Assembly: GCA_016791475.1 (NCBI GenBank)
Contig: JAEUWI010000022.1
Location: 73,658 to 107,858 of the forward strand
Origin: Candidatus Hydrogenedentota bacterium
GTDB taxonomy: Bacteria > Hydrogenedentota > Hydrogenedentia > Hydrogenedentales > JAEUWI01
Direction: 5' to 3'
DNA length: 34,201 nucleotides
Shown: one piece after another, positions 16,946 through 25,259 of the stretch
How positions within the stretch are numbered: position 1 is the first letter of the stretch
Layout of the letters: each line of letters starts with the position of its first letter
Translations under genes and position numbers: made by a program
Notes under the pieces: model-generated
Seen by the model: the letters and a program-made list of their open reading frames with translations, nothing else
What the model was told of the DNA's origin: nothing
The model's database searches: none

Positions 16946-16974
16946 TTGACCCCTCCCTTCGGCTTTCGTACACT
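16946..16974 (+). promoter_or_regulatory. Sigma-70-type promoter for the 16997 gene
   Basis: TTGACC and TACACT are exactly 17 bases apart. The start near 16981 would leave a very short leader that includes AAGGAG at 16985-16990. Confidence 0.5.
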
Positions 16975-16996
16975 GCTGGCGCAGAAGGAGTACCCC

Positions 16997-18508
16997 ATGG
17001 CCACCCCAGCCTTTTCGATTGACGCATTCAAGGCCGCCGCCGAGCCGGTCCTGGCCGATGCGGTAGAGCGGCGGAACACGCTAAGTCTTGCCGCGCTTCG
17101 CGACTACGCCACCCTCTTTACCCCCGCGAACCTGGAGCTGTACAAGCTGGAGAATATCTTCCAGTCCTTCGTGATGCATTTTCCGCCGAGCAGCTTTTCG
17201 GTTAATGTGGCCCATGTGCGGGATGAGCGCGTGGGCGACGCCGCGCGGATGTCGGCTTGTGTCGGTGCGCTGCTTAAAGCGATGGAGCGCGCGCCCGGCA
17301 CCACGCTGGAGGTGGAAATCTTCGAGCAGGAAGAACACAGCGTCATGGTGTCGCGCATGGCCATCGCCTTCAACGGCCCCGGACGCATCCCCGAGCACTT
17401 TCTCTTTGCCGGGCGCTTCCCCATGACCTTGACGGAGCTGAGCCACTGCTGGACGCTGGCGACCTCGGGCGGGCGCATTGATTTGACGGAAGACGGGGTG
17501 GTGCTGCGTCTCGACGGCATGCGGATGCCGCCGGAGCCGCTGGAGCTCGCGGAACGATTGTCGGCTTTTCTGGGGCGATCACCGCAGGTGGAGGACGCCG
17601 AGCGGGCGCTTTCGCTGATTGAAGATCGGGGGCCGCTGGAACTGGCCGACCTGGCCCGGGTCTACGGCGAGGCTGTGGAGGCCCACAAGTCGCTGCTGCA
17701 CCAGGGCGGGATTCTGGAGAAAAACGGGTTCGAGGGCAGCTTCCCTCCCCTGCCGCTGAACCGCGCGCGCATGGGTGCTTTTTTCGGAGGACTCTTTCAC
17801 TGGGCGGTGGCGGTGGCTCCCGAAGGCGGGGTTTTGGAGACGCTGGTGGAGTACGACGAGTCGAAGCGGGAGGCGGCGGGGATGATCACCTTCAACACGA
17901 CCGCGCCAACGATTAAGGAAAGCTTTCACCTTTCCGTGATGAAGCGGGCGATCCGCCATCATGGCGGCGGTGTGGATATGGATCTCGCGCCAACGGAGGC
18001 CGCCATCACGTTCACGCTGGCGGATGGCGTTGGAAAGACGCTGGATGCCTGGCTCCCCGGTTGGGATGCCTTTGGGCCGGAATCGCGCAAATACCTCCGT
18101 CTGCTCAAGAGCGGTGCCCAGGCCCCGCCGGAGGACTTTATTCTGGGCGGTATTCTGGAGCAGGAGCTGGAGAACTGGCTCCTGCCGCGCCTGGCGGAGC
18201 CGGTGGCGGTCAACCTTGCGAAGGACGGGACCTTTCGTAATGAAGGTCTCAAGGGCAGCATCAAGGAGCGTATGCAGAAGGCCCTCGATCAGGTGGGGCG
18301 CGGTAAGCCGAAGAAAGAGATCTGCCAGCCGCAGTACGCGGGGGAACTGCTCTGGGCCTTCCGGGGCGATCCGCGCCAGCGCTACGCCCTGGGCACCGAG
18401 GTGCTCACCGATGAAGAATTGCAACAGCTATGCGAAGGGCTCCTGTCGAAGCCGGTGGATGGGCGGGCCTGTCTGGTGCTGCTCGCCCTGCTCCACACGC
18501 GGCGTTGA
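16997..18508 (+). CDS. Unrecognised 503-residue protein with two HATPase-like segments
   Basis: No family is recognised with confidence. There is no signal peptide or membrane helix, so it is probably cytoplasmic. Two segments look like decayed GHKL/HATPase folds. In the first (about 84-172), FNGPGRIPEHFL resembles the G1 box of histidine kinases, and SGGRIDLTEDGVVLRL resembles their last strand pair. In the second (about 257-341), LSVMKRAIRHHGGGVDMDL and TEAAITFTL repeat the latter pattern. The N-box Asn and the G1 Asp are missing, so ATP use is unlikely. A helical region lies between them, and the C-terminal 160 residues are unassigned. AAGGAG 6 bases before ATG 16997 fixes the start. It appears to be a single-gene unit. 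Confidence 0.85.
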   Translation: MATPAFSIDAFKAAAEPVLADAVERRNTLSLAALRDYATLFTPANLELYKLENIFQSFVMHFPPSSFSVNVAHVRDERVGDAARMSACVGALLKAMERAPGTTLEVEIFEQEEHSVMVSRMAIAFNGPGRIPEHFLFAGRFPMTLTELSHCWTLATSGGRIDLTEDGVVLRLDGMRMPPEPLELAERLSAFLGRSPQVEDAERALSLIEDRGPLELADLARVYGEAVEAHKSLLHQGGILEKNGFEGSFPPLPLNRARMGAFFGGLFHWAVAVAPEGGVLETLVEYDESKREAAGMITFNTTAPTIKESFHLSVMKRAIRHHGGGVDMDLAPTEAAITFTLADGVGKTLDAWLPGWDAFGPESRKYLRLLKSGAQAPPEDFILGGILEQELENWLLPRLAEPVAVNLAKDGTFRNEGLKGSIKERMQKALDQVGRGKPKKEICQPQYAGELLWAFRGDPRQRYALGTEVLTDEELQQLCEGLLSKPVDGRACLVLLALLHTRR

Positions 18509-18560: not shown

Positions 18561-19100
18561 TCAGTGGCCCAGTTGCTCGATCAGCTCCGAGGCGTCCGCC
18601 TTGGTTTTCAGACGTGCAATCTGCGCCCCGTTCGCCCCGAGTTTGTGCAGCAGTTCAATCTGCATCTGCGTGGGACGGAGGTGCATGGCTTCGATGAGGG
18701 CGGAGGCATCGGCCTGGCTGATGAGTTGGGCGATCTGATCGTGGGATGCGCCAAGACGAATCAAGTGGGCCAGTTGCTTGGGCGTGGGCGGGGAAAGTTT
18801 ACGATGCTGCGTCCGCAGGGCGTCGATCCGATCCGCGGCGGCATCCTTGTCCAGTCCAATAATGTCGGACTCCGTATCGCCAAGGCGCCGCAGGTATTCC
18901 TTCTGCGCCTCGGTCGCCGGCGTGCCGGAAGGGCCCTGGGGCAGTTCGGCCACAAGGCTCGCCATTTGAGGCGCGGGATCGTTCGCCGCGCCGATGAGGG
19001 CAATCTTGACGCCGCACTTATTGCACTGGCCGCGCTGGCCGAGATGCCTGGGCGCAACGCGCAGCACCTGCCTGCACGCTGGACATATGAACTGAAGCAT
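18561..19100 (-). CDS. Zinc-ribbon protein with three helical LGA repeats (paralogue A)
   Basis: A 179-residue soluble protein. CPAC (C6, C9) and CNKCG (C26, C29) form an N-terminal zinc ribbon that ends in IALIG. After a linker, three repeats of about 35 residues (61-95, 104-138, 143-177) follow the pattern PTxxQLxxLxxLGAxxxQIxxLxxKADASxLIExL. The repeat resembles the eASxLIxxL helical motif seen in some phage and archaeal DNA-binding proteins, but that link is weak. The gene at 20133 is a clear paralogue with the same architecture. The gene is last in a minus-strand run of three (20687 to 18561), 114 bases after the epimerase. The ribosome site is poor. A nucleic-acid or protein-binding role is plausible; none is shown. 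Confidence 0.8.
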   Translation of the reverse strand: MLQFICPACRQVLRVAPRHLGQRGQCNKCGVKIALIGAANDPAPQMASLVAELPQGPSGTPATEAQKEYLRRLGDTESDIIGLDKDAAADRIDALRTQHRKLSPPTPKQLAHLIRLGASHDQIAQLISQADASALIEAMHLRPTQMQIELLHKLGANGAQIARLKTKADASELIEQLGH

Positions 19101-19214
19101 GTTTTTCGCACTCTTTCCGGCGTGGCGTGGCCACGCATGCTATACGCCACGGCTCCTTCGCCGGGGCCTGCCACACGACCGCTCCCAAAGAGGACCGACC
19201 GCGGGCGTCTGGTT

Positions 19215-20075
19215 TCAAGAATAATATCTGGCTTCGAGGGTTTTGAGGTATTTCAATCCATCGCCGAGGAGTTGATCACTGGACTCGGCCAGGGAACGCC
19301 ACATGCAGGTCGCCGCAGCCATGGCGGGTGAGACGCTTTCGAAGGACTCAAGTCCCACGATGCCTTCGTAGCGAGACTCGCCGAGGGCCCGGTAGATCTC
19401 GTCCCAGTTCACCGTACCCGTCCCCGGCGTGCCGCGATGGCTTTCGCTGAGGTGGAAGTGGCAGAGATGGGGTACCGCCAATCGGGTGGGTTCGTAAAAG
19501 TTACGCTCCTCAATGTTCATGTGATAGGCGTCGAGGTGTACCTTGACGTTGGGTTCGCCGATGCGGTCCCGCAGGGCGAGTGCCTGCTCGGCGGTATTGA
19601 TGAGAAAGGTCTCGTAACGATTGATCGCTTCAATGCCCAGGGTGACACCGTGGTCCGAGGCGTAGCGCGCGGCTTCGCGCATCACCGTTGCCGCGTGGTC
19701 CCAATGGGCCTCGTTGGGGCGTCCCGTGATCTTTCTGCCAATGGCGGAATAGGTGACGCCCGTGAACACGGTCCCTCCCATGTCCGCCGTGGCCTTGATG
19801 CATTTCTTAAGGTAATCGAGCCCGGCTGCGCGGACGGCGGGGTCGTCCGATGTGGGGTCGGTATGCTCCGCGCAGGCCGTGGAAGTGCACAGGGCCATGC
19901 CGGCCTCCGCCGCGCGGGCCCGGATGGCCGCCGCGTCCACCTTCTCAATTTCCATGAGCGGCACTTCGACCAGATCAAAGCCCAGCGATCGGGCGCGGTC
20001 GATGATATCGAGTGTGTCGTTGCTCCAGCTATTCGTCCACGCATAGGCGTGAACCGCATACCGCAAGGGATTCAT
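19215..20075 (-). CDS. Sugar 3-epimerase / sugar phosphate isomerase, TIM barrel (tagatose/psicose 3-epimerase-like)
   Basis: A 286-residue cytoplasmic TIM-barrel enzyme of the AP-endonuclease-2 superfamily. The four metal ligands of D-tagatose/D-psicose 3-epimerases (E152, D185, H211, E246 in the known enzymes) are matched here as E149 (GIE), D182 (HLDAYH), H208 (CHFHLSE) and E243 (GLES), a constant shift of three. Arg214 matches the known active-site Arg, and the catalytic pair of glutamates is therefore intact. It should interconvert ketohexoses or related sugars at C3; the natural substrate is open because the superfamily is broad. A very strong ribosome site, AAGGAGGAG, lies 8 bases before the ATG. 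It sits between the two zinc-ribbon paralogues, 57 bases after the first, probably in one operon. Confidence 0.92.
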   Translation of the reverse strand: MNPLRYAVHAYAWTNSWSNDTLDIIDRARSLGFDLVEVPLMEIEKVDAAAIRARAAEAGMALCTSTACAEHTDPTSDDPAVRAAGLDYLKKCIKATADMGGTVFTGVTYSAIGRKITGRPNEAHWDHAATVMREAARYASDHGVTLGIEAINRYETFLINTAEQALALRDRIGEPNVKVHLDAYHMNIEERNFYEPTRLAVPHLCHFHLSESHRGTPGTGTVNWDEIYRALGESRYEGIVGLESFESVSPAMAAATCMWRSLAESSDQLLGDGLKYLKTLEARYYS

Positions 20076-20132
20076 GGAAAGACTCCTCCTTCAAATCGAG
20101 GCTGCAATTCTCCGGGCCGTGCCGGAGCGTTC

Positions 20133-20687
20133 TCAATAGTCACTTTCGTATTCTTCCGCGTCGTTTTCCGATTCGTACTCATCAATCATCGCCTGGGCCA
20201 CGCCCTGCGTCGTGAGGTAGCTCAATTCTTCCTCCGACACGCCGTAAGACCGCAAAATTGCCAACTGTTCTTCCGTCGGCGGCGGCTGGAGCACTTCGAT
20301 CAGGCGGATGGCGTCGCCCTTGGTCTTCAACCGTTGCAGTTGCCCCTCGGTCGCGCCGAGTTCGCGGAGGCGCCTGAGCTGATCGTCCGTGGGAGGCGCT
20401 TCAATTTCCGAATCACTCTCGAAGTCGGTCACAACTTCGTCGTCCCAGCCCGAAATGCTTTCCAGGGCGGCATCGAGCGAAGACGCGACCAAATGGGGCA
20501 GACCTTCGATGGGATGGGCCACTTCCACCACCCGAGGCTCCAGCGCCTGGGCCCGCTGGGCCGTGAGCATGTTCCGTTCTCCGATGAGGGCAATTCGACC
20601 GCCACACTTCTTGCAGTAGCCCCGGAATCCGACAAACTGCGGGCGAATCTGGAGCGATTGCTCGCAATGTGGACAGATGAATATCAT
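20133..20687 (-). CDS. Zinc-ribbon protein with two helical LGA repeats (paralogue B)
   Basis: A 184-residue soluble protein related to the one at 18561. CPHC (C5, C8) and CKKCG (C25, C28) form the zinc ribbon, again ending in IALIG. A variable, acidic linker (about 40-97) follows, then two repeats (99-132 and 137-170) of the same pattern, for example PTDDQLRRLRELGATEGQ, and a strongly acidic tail rich in Asp, Glu and Ser. ATG 20687 is chosen for GGGAG 5 bases upstream and because the Cys motif follows at once; the open frame beyond it lacks protein character. It is first in the minus-strand run of three and divergent from the gene at 20874. Function unknown. Confidence 0.82.
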   Translation of the reverse strand: MIFICPHCEQSLQIRPQFVGFRGYCKKCGGRIALIGERNMLTAQRAQALEPRVVEVAHPIEGLPHLVASSLDAALESISGWDDEVVTDFESDSEIEAPPTDDQLRRLRELGATEGQLQRLKTKGDAIRLIEVLQPPPTEEQLAILRSYGVSEEELSYLTTQGVAQAMIDEYESENDAEEYESDY

Positions 20688-23675: not shown

Positions 23676-23704
23676 ATTCGTACATCCGGCCCGTTGAGTG
23701 ATAC

Positions 23705-23710
23705 TATAAT
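23705..23710 (+). promoter_or_regulatory. Consensus -10 box before the MshEN-FHA gene
   Basis: TATAAT matches the -10 consensus exactly, about 74 bases before ATG 23784. The -35 region is weak. Confidence 0.45.
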
Positions 23711-23783
23711 CGCTGATCCGGGCGGCGGATTCACCTGCCACGCCCGGTGTGCGCGAAGCTTTGACACCCGAATTCTGCTATCC

Positions 23784-25259
23784 ATGACCGAACCATCCAA
23801 TGTACCCGTGAACGACACGCCGAGCGCCGGCCGACTTGGTCAGTTGCTGGTAAAGCAGGGCATTGTGTCCGCAGGACAAATCCATGCCGCACTCGCCCTT
23901 CAGGAAAATGAAAACAGCCACCTCGTGAAGGGCCTCGTCAGCCTCGGCTTTCTCAAGGAGACCGACCTGACCAATTTCCTGGTGAAGCACCTCAAGCTGC
24001 CCCGTCTCAACCTGGCGGATTACAACGTGAGCCAGGATGTGCTCAAGACCGTACCGCGCGAGTTGTGCCTGCGCCACCGTCTGATGCCCATCGACATTCT
24101 CGGCAAAAACCTGACCCTCGCAATGGTGAATCCATTGGATGATGCCGCGCTCGCGGCGGTGCAGCAGGCCTGTCCAGACTTTCGGCTAAAGCCCTTTCTA
24201 TGTTCACTTTCCGACTTTGACCTGGTGGCCAGTCGCCTTTTGCGAAGCGAGCAGGAACAGAAGAGCAACTCCGAAATCAGCCTGAAGAGCCTGGGCATCA
24301 CGGGACCCGCCCGAAAGACCGAAGTGCCTGCGGGCCTGTCCCGTCCGGAGGCACCGCCCGAGGTAGAAGACGATCCCACCGCGACCAAGCTCTTCGATGG
24401 CCCCGCCATCATGCCCCGTCGTTCTACCGGACCGCTGCGGTCCAGTCTGATCTGCCTCGACGGCTGGGAGTTGGGCCGGGAAATTGAAATCCAGGGCCAC
24501 GAGTATCTTCTTGGTCGTTCGGCCGATGCCGATACCACCATCGCCTCACCCCTTATTTCGAGGGAGCACGCCCGCATCACGCGAAATGAAGAATACGGCC
24601 AGGAAACCTTCGTCATCACCGATCTGAAAAGCAGTAACGGGACTTTCGTGAACAACGTGCCGGTGACGACGACCATCCTGCGGCACGGAGACCGAATTCT
24701 ACTGGGCAATGTGCTTTTCAAATTCGTGCTGCTGGACGAAGTTGAGGCGCGATTCCACCAGGATGTGCACCGACTCTACAGTATCCAGAAGGGTACGGGA
24801 CTGCTGCCCGCCGATGGCTGGTTTAAGGCGCTTGATCGCGCGGTGGGTGGCTCTGAGGCCCCCCTGCGCACCGCGTGCCTGATTGAAATTGACCATTTGC
24901 CCGCAGTAGAGCAGAGTCATGGACAGATCGCGAGTGTGATTGTCTTGAGCGATGCGAGCGACATTCTTGGTCGCTCTCTCGGGCGTGGAGACCTTCCAGG
25001 CGATCTCGGAAACGGACGAATTGGCGTGCTGTTTGAATCAAAACAAACAGAACCCGCCTATTTGCTTCTGGAGGACCTCCGGCGCTGTGTGGAGGCCCAT
25101 GTGTTCACCCACAAGGAAGCCCGATTCCGCAGCACGCTCAGTATCGGCCTGGCAACGACCGAGGGATGTGCGGACGGCAAGGCCCTCTACGGGAAATTGG
25201 AGAAGGGGCTGGCATCCGCGATCGAGTACGGTCGCAACAGAATAGAAATACAGCACTAA
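23784..25259 (+). CDS. MshEN - FHA - degenerate GGDEF signalling protein
   Basis: A 491-residue cytoplasmic protein with three modules. Residues 16-152 are an MshEN/T2SSE-N domain; GRLGQLLVKQGIVSAGQIHAAL and the second LGFLKETDL motif fit the c-di-GMP-binding pattern described for MshEN. A Pro-rich linker leads to an FHA domain (about 222-317) with the phosphothreonine-binding residues in place: LGRS (R245), SREH (S259, H262) and SSNGT (N285, G286). Residues about 330-490 match the GGDEF fold, with a recognisable IEID core and SIGLAT end, but the GGDEF loop reads GNGRI, so no cyclase activity is expected. The start is set by the domain; the ribosome site is poor. It may relay c-di-GMP and Ser/Thr phosphorylation; the partner kinase is not in the window. 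Confidence 0.88.
   Translation: MTEPSNVPVNDTPSAGRLGQLLVKQGIVSAGQIHAALALQENENSHLVKGLVSLGFLKETDLTNFLVKHLKLPRLNLADYNVSQDVLKTVPRELCLRHRLMPIDILGKNLTLAMVNPLDDAALAAVQQACPDFRLKPFLCSLSDFDLVASRLLRSEQEQKSNSEISLKSLGITGPARKTEVPAGLSRPEAPPEVEDDPTATKLFDGPAIMPRRSTGPLRSSLICLDGWELGREIEIQGHEYLLGRSADADTTIASPLISREHARITRNEEYGQETFVITDLKSSNGTFVNNVPVTTTILRHGDRILLGNVLFKFVLLDEVEARFHQDVHRLYSIQKGTGLLPADGWFKALDRAVGGSEAPLRTACLIEIDHLPAVEQSHGQIASVIVLSDASDILGRSLGRGDLPGDLGNGRIGVLFESKQTEPAYLLLEDLRRCVEAHVFTHKEARFRSTLSIGLATTEGCADGKALYGKLEKGLASAIEYGRNRIEIQH

Follow-up and report, generated by a model that had tools for sequence, protein, structure and literature searches.

Zinc-ribbon proteins with tandem DUF3072-like repeats in Candidatus Hydrogenedentota and their possible role as docking adaptors

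DUF3072 (PF11272) is a Pfam family of unknown function. LysW, an amino-group carrier, carries its substrate on a C-terminal EDWGE motif. Among DNA-annealing proteins, the C-terminal domain (CTD) of Red-beta forms a bundle of 3 helices to which lambda exonuclease and SSB bind, but not DNA (PMC8303780), and annealing proteins of several families have a common shuffled C-terminal domain, remotely homologous to the Red-beta CTD (PMC8093625). As for pyrrolysyl-tRNA synthetase (PylRS), a helix of its domain 1 touches the tRNA acceptor (PMC11764691).

The 2 proteins considered here, ZnA and ZnB, are made of parts that are known or named, and the combination of these parts is new: in the libraries searched, neither a ribbon followed by tandem units nor a paired acidic paralogue was found described. 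According to profile matches, ZnA shares its repeat unit with DUF3072; the 2 DUF3072 members examined, however, consist of a single unit with no ribbon, whereas ZnA has 3 units behind one. Full or near-full units (28–40 bits) are also present in a Thermus Rad52, an ERF protein, and one superfamily 2 (SF2) helicase. There, however, one copy is attached to a catalytic protein, while ZnA and ZnB carry tandem copies on a ribbon and have no catalytic domain.

Two ribbon proteins and the gene between them

The window, i.e., the whole analysed stretch of 34,201 nucleotides, belongs to a draft assembly of 7.7 Mb. ZnB (184 aa, 20133..20687), a sugar epimerase (19215..20075), and ZnA (179 aa, 18561..19100) follow one another on its minus strand, with gaps of 57 bp between ZnB and the epimerase and 114 bp between the epimerase and ZnA. 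The open reading frames, the alignment, the charge, and the repeat hidden Markov model (HMM) bear out what the preliminary description had reported, namely, a related pair flanking an epimerase on one strand with short gaps, a four-cysteine ribbon ending in IALIG in both proteins, 3 repeats versus 2, and an acidic tail in one copy, which is ZnB. ZnA and ZnB are indeed paralogues.

Both proteins open with a C-x2-C-x16-C-x2-C ribbon (residues 1–37 of ZnA, 18990..19100, and residues 1–36 of ZnB, 20580..20687, both on the minus strand). It has the 2 CxxC knuckles and the small beta fold of a zinc ribbon: C6, C9, C26, and C29 of ZnA are invariant in 18 homologues, and the predicted structure shows 4 short strands. 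The CxxC...CxxC pattern is common to MJ0042-type and LysW-type ribbons, with the MJ0042 model matched by 6 of the 18 family members (best E-value 0.0019) and LysW being the top structural match to the ZnA model (Z 5.8). These matches, however, are weak, none of them was seen to exceed a curated cut-off, and the EDWGE motif of LysW is absent from both ZnA and ZnB.

In ZnA the ribbon is followed by 3 repeats, namely, residues 61–96 (18813..18920), 104–140 (18681..18791), and 142–177 (18570..18677), all on the minus strand. ZnB has 2 repeats on the same strand, at residues 98–134 (20286..20396) and 136–171 (20175..20282), while an acidic segment (residues 72–97, 20397..20474) stands in for repeat 1 according to alignment and charge, and an acidic C-terminal tail (residues 171–184, 20136..20177), reading ...ENDAEEYESDY, closes the protein. 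Overall ZnB is strongly acidic (net charge −19, pI 4.4), with values of −14 to −28 across its members.

In a search of 68 Candidatus Hydrogenedentota genomes, a profile built from 18 members recovers the family in 14, which belong to families f1, f2, f6, f8, f9, and f10; in f3, f4, f5, f7, and f11 the same profile finds no member. Outside f1, the family of the window, there is a single copy with 3 repeats, which in one genome (G007) is split over 2 contig ends. ZnB is found in the 4 genomes that represent the genus of the window and in one genome (G005) from a sister genus, and its proteins group in a single clade (99/97) that excludes every ZnA and single-copy protein, in a tree that has a midpoint root only and 2 long branches. 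Most simply, ZnB arose by duplication, losing repeat 1 and gaining acidic segments. Both ZnA and ZnB are selected protein-coding genes under purifying selection, since dN/dS comes out at about 0.1 within the genus wherever dS is computable, third codon positions change about 3 times as often as the others, or even more often, and the cysteines as well as the start sites are kept.

The middle gene is an ordinary ketose 3-epimerase of the D-tagatose/psicose type from the wider AP_endonuc_2 family (PF01261, 5.9e-46). Its closest PDB entries are D-tagatose 3-epimerases (1e-56), and its score for the D-psicose 3-epimerase equivalog NF051856 (201.6 bits) lies below the curated cut-off of 300.

Regarding other genes, the plus strand of the window holds a 520-aa protein without a Pfam match (16946-18508), in which stretches like degenerate histidine-kinase ATPase domains can be seen by eye, and a gene kept near ZnB within the genus (23694-25259), the product of which combines MshEN and FHA with a GGDEF match that falls just short of the Pfam cut-off. 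The pair of ribbon and repeat recurs in different proteins of the genus. Thus, a third such protein of the window's own genome (L128:2306-3031, G000:C5) has a ribbon, one LGA repeat, a membrane segment, and a Cys-rich C-terminal end, and a protein of another genome (L160:246-857, G002:C514) has a ribbon and one LGA repeat joined to hydrophobic segments resembling a TM2 domain.

The repeat unit and its carriers

The repeats of ZnA and ZnB, about 36 residues long, are above chance. The local scores of ZnA repeats 2 and 3 (75) and of the ZnB repeat pair (70) are reached by none of 2,000 shuffles; repeat 1 of ZnA is weaker, its score being reached by 1 shuffle of 2,000. The repeat HMM reports 3 units in ZnA, 2 in ZnB (E-values from 3e-17 to 2e-13), and one in the third protein of the genome.

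Repeat 1 of ZnA matches DUF3072 with 30.1 bits (gathering cut-off 27.5), and 13 of the 18 family members match it at E ≤ 0.1 (best E-value 2.6e-12), which makes the repeat a relative of DUF3072. ZnB has no match to the DUF3072 model in the Pfam search, and a literature search on DUF3072 in a limited paper collection found nothing. The preliminary description had been unable to match the architecture to a named family and had suggested an HMM search with both the repeat and the ribbon. For the architecture as a whole this stands, with no whole-protein family recovered; it does not for the repeat, which leads to DUF3072, and the ribbon leads to weak MJ0042 matches. Two further matches were set aside: designed TIM barrels, matched by the repeat profile among PDB sequences, have only KQxExLRRLGA in common with it, which is put down to chance, and a Streptomyces NACHT protein (E 0.3) does not contain the repeat.

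Searched against 72,556 plasmid records, a native three-repeat orthologue (from G015) has its best match (E 2e-5) in a Rad52/Rad22 protein encoded by a Thermus plasmid, towards the end of that protein and with its C-terminal 39 residues included. The last residues of this protein, KPASEAQIRFLRKLGYPEEKLVGLTASEASRLIDELSRK, form one complete unit according to the repeat HMM (40.1 bits), and the remainder is a Rad52/Erf-type annealing domain (PF04098, 1e-18; Erf-like phrog_1097, 2e-31). A pattern scan of viral contigs adds an ERF annealing protein (PF04404, 3.5e-38) that ends in the unit (28.4 bits), as well as SF2 helicases (phrog_16, 6e-81). Because the query of this first scan included consensus sequences made by the author and the Thermus unit, the scan was redone with natural ZnA-family repeats as the sole query. 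It gives 2 hits, one of which is once more an SF2 helicase of that group, with a unit of 32.1 bits and a phmmer match to the other helicases at 7e-22. The tail of another helicase pair (L176/L177), which came from the first scan, scores just 2–3 bits with the repeat HMM.

All unit carriers with an assigned function are DNA-annealing proteins or helicases; for most of the other carriers on viral contigs no function is known, and 12 of the 13 Rad52/Erf-type proteins examined are without the unit. A large viral-contig group with no known function (L174:355-1644, L175, L180:481-1623, and L181:235-1644) shows a conserved CVCGH...EHI and has the unit at its C-terminus. What ZnA and ZnB have in common with Rad52/ERF proteins is the accessory unit alone, as neither matches PF04098 or PF04404 in Pfam. 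With ZnA itself as the query, phages and plasmids return no match, and no whole relatives turn up among viral contigs, phages, and plasmids when these are scanned with the family or ZnA. The identity of the module, i.e., a DUF3072-like unit that is also borne by annealing proteins and helicases, is well supported.

Predicted structure and possible role

The AlphaFold2 model of ZnA has a four-strand ribbon and 3 three-helix units (mean pLDDT 88.7, pTM 0.51). Modelled alone, the repeats again form 3 helices each (pLDDT 88.6, pTM 0.54), and at these pTM values (0.51–0.54) the orientation of one repeat to the next is uncertain. Foldseek reports no PDB match under E 0.001 for either model, and the viral structure library gives weak matches only. 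In the VIA search the full ZnA model is paired with the complex of the Red-beta CTD and an SSB peptide (8tfu) at Z 4.5 over 47 residues, which lies in a Z range that the tool calls common; Red-beta is not listed in the repeat-only search. As predicted, the repeat would be a three-helix unit similar in size to the Red-beta CTD/lambda Orf fold, which docks SSB and exonuclease, and either unit can form the C-terminal end of annealing proteins. The sequences, however, show no significant similarity (1.6 bits, hhalign probability 2%). The fold matches to Red-beta and, as detailed below, to PylRS are weak leads.

The preliminary description had named adaptor and nucleic-acid-binding functions side by side. 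Because the unit is also present on DNA-recombination proteins and helicases, its sequence relationships favour an adaptor over a nucleic-acid binder for ZnA and ZnB. A mobile module, attached to the C-terminal ends of annealing proteins as well as helicases, would most simply serve to dock some shared partner at single-stranded DNA. On this view ZnA, with 3 tandem three-helix modules, would be a freestanding, multivalent adaptor for docking, the ribbon of which may hold a second partner, and the acidic two-repeat ZnB would probably compete with it or modulate it. That ZnA is a small soluble docking adaptor in DNA repair or replication and ZnB a later, acidic modulating paralogue is a proposal to which we give an even chance of being right; here we infer that the modules dock, what they dock to, where in DNA metabolism they act, and what ZnB does. 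Counting against a repair role, the conserved neighbours of ZnA are not DNA-repair genes: in several relatives it adjoins the 520-aa gene without assigned function, and some of these also have an M50 protease and ValS close to it. As a strict partner, the 520-aa gene, which is convergent with ZnA in several relatives, was rejected, because it is present in 29 of the 68 genomes, some of them from a large family that lacks ZnA, and is located elsewhere in 2 genomes with ZnA. PADLOC reports no defence family.

In favour of the docking adaptor, the SSB of the host ends in the canonical acidic tip DDIPF. A two-part switch, in which the ZnA modules would bind this tail and the acidic segments of ZnB (e.g., the C-terminal ...AEEYESDY) would mimic it and so block or release the modules, is conceivable, yet the chances of it being correct are slim.

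As for other explanations, ZnA and ZnB could be general protein–protein adaptors acting outside DNA metabolism, e.g., scaffolds of the membrane or of cell organisation, which is somewhat unlikely. In G000:C5 and G002:C514, proteins of the same genus, membrane segments accompany one repeat and a ribbon of similar kind, and the relatives of the ribbon include the protein binders LysW and ZitP (Z 4.2) by structure and AgmX by sequence (E 0.5). The functions assigned to unit carriers, however, all belong to DNA annealing or unwinding proteins as listed above, which counts against this reading.

Direct binding of RNA or tRNA by the ZnA repeats, through helices like the N-terminal tRNA-binding ones of PylRS and a basic ribbon in a translation-linked protein, appears unlikely. 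According to the repeat-only VIA search, the best Z belongs to PylRS (3dsq_A, Z 4.3, rmsd 2.2 over 44 residues), with M. mazei PylRS at 3.0–3.7. The narrow repeat HMM, moreover, gives 2 PylRS N-termini 7.4 and 9.4 bits, above all unrelated natural windows (best 5.8), and the registers are compatible (hhalign E 3e-4 for this one comparison). The tRNA contact of PylRS domain 1, a net ribbon charge of +2 to +7 in ZnA and the single-copy members, and the location of ValS near ZnA in some relatives also speak for this reading. With the broader module profile A7, however, the PylRS scores drop to background (5.3 and 4.0 bits vs 5.5 for the best unrelated window), every Z is below 5, the repeats have about zero net charge, ZnB is strongly acidic, and the close relatives of the unit sit on DNA-annealing proteins and helicases.

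Finally, a sugar-metabolism unit of all 3 genes, with the ribbon proteins regulating the epimerase, is highly improbable: strand and order are the same in 4 genomes of the genus and G005 of one sister genus, and only there, but the gaps across relatives vary between about 30 and 545 bp, no epimerase adjoins the single-copy ZnA genes, and an epimerase 76% identical to that of the window (L129:4262-5119, G028:C243) occurs in another family without ZnA or ZnB. The epimerase link, for which the preliminary description had suggested a neighbourhood survey, is therefore not general; because the epimerase is also found without ZnA and ZnB, the link is local to one lineage and the enzyme is probably unrelated to the ZnA/ZnB system. 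The G028 epimerase was possibly transferred horizontally.

Returning to the docking adaptor, these comparisons tie DUF3072 and an unnamed tandem repeat to a module that accompanies annealing proteins and helicases of phages and plasmids. A small domain without known function thereby becomes testable as a docking module. In the lineage described here, a free zinc-ribbon protein bears several copies of the module, and every genome sampled from several families of this little-studied phylum has such a protein. If docking to SSB is true, ZnA and ZnB would serve the replication and repair machinery as free docking proteins with several binding sites.
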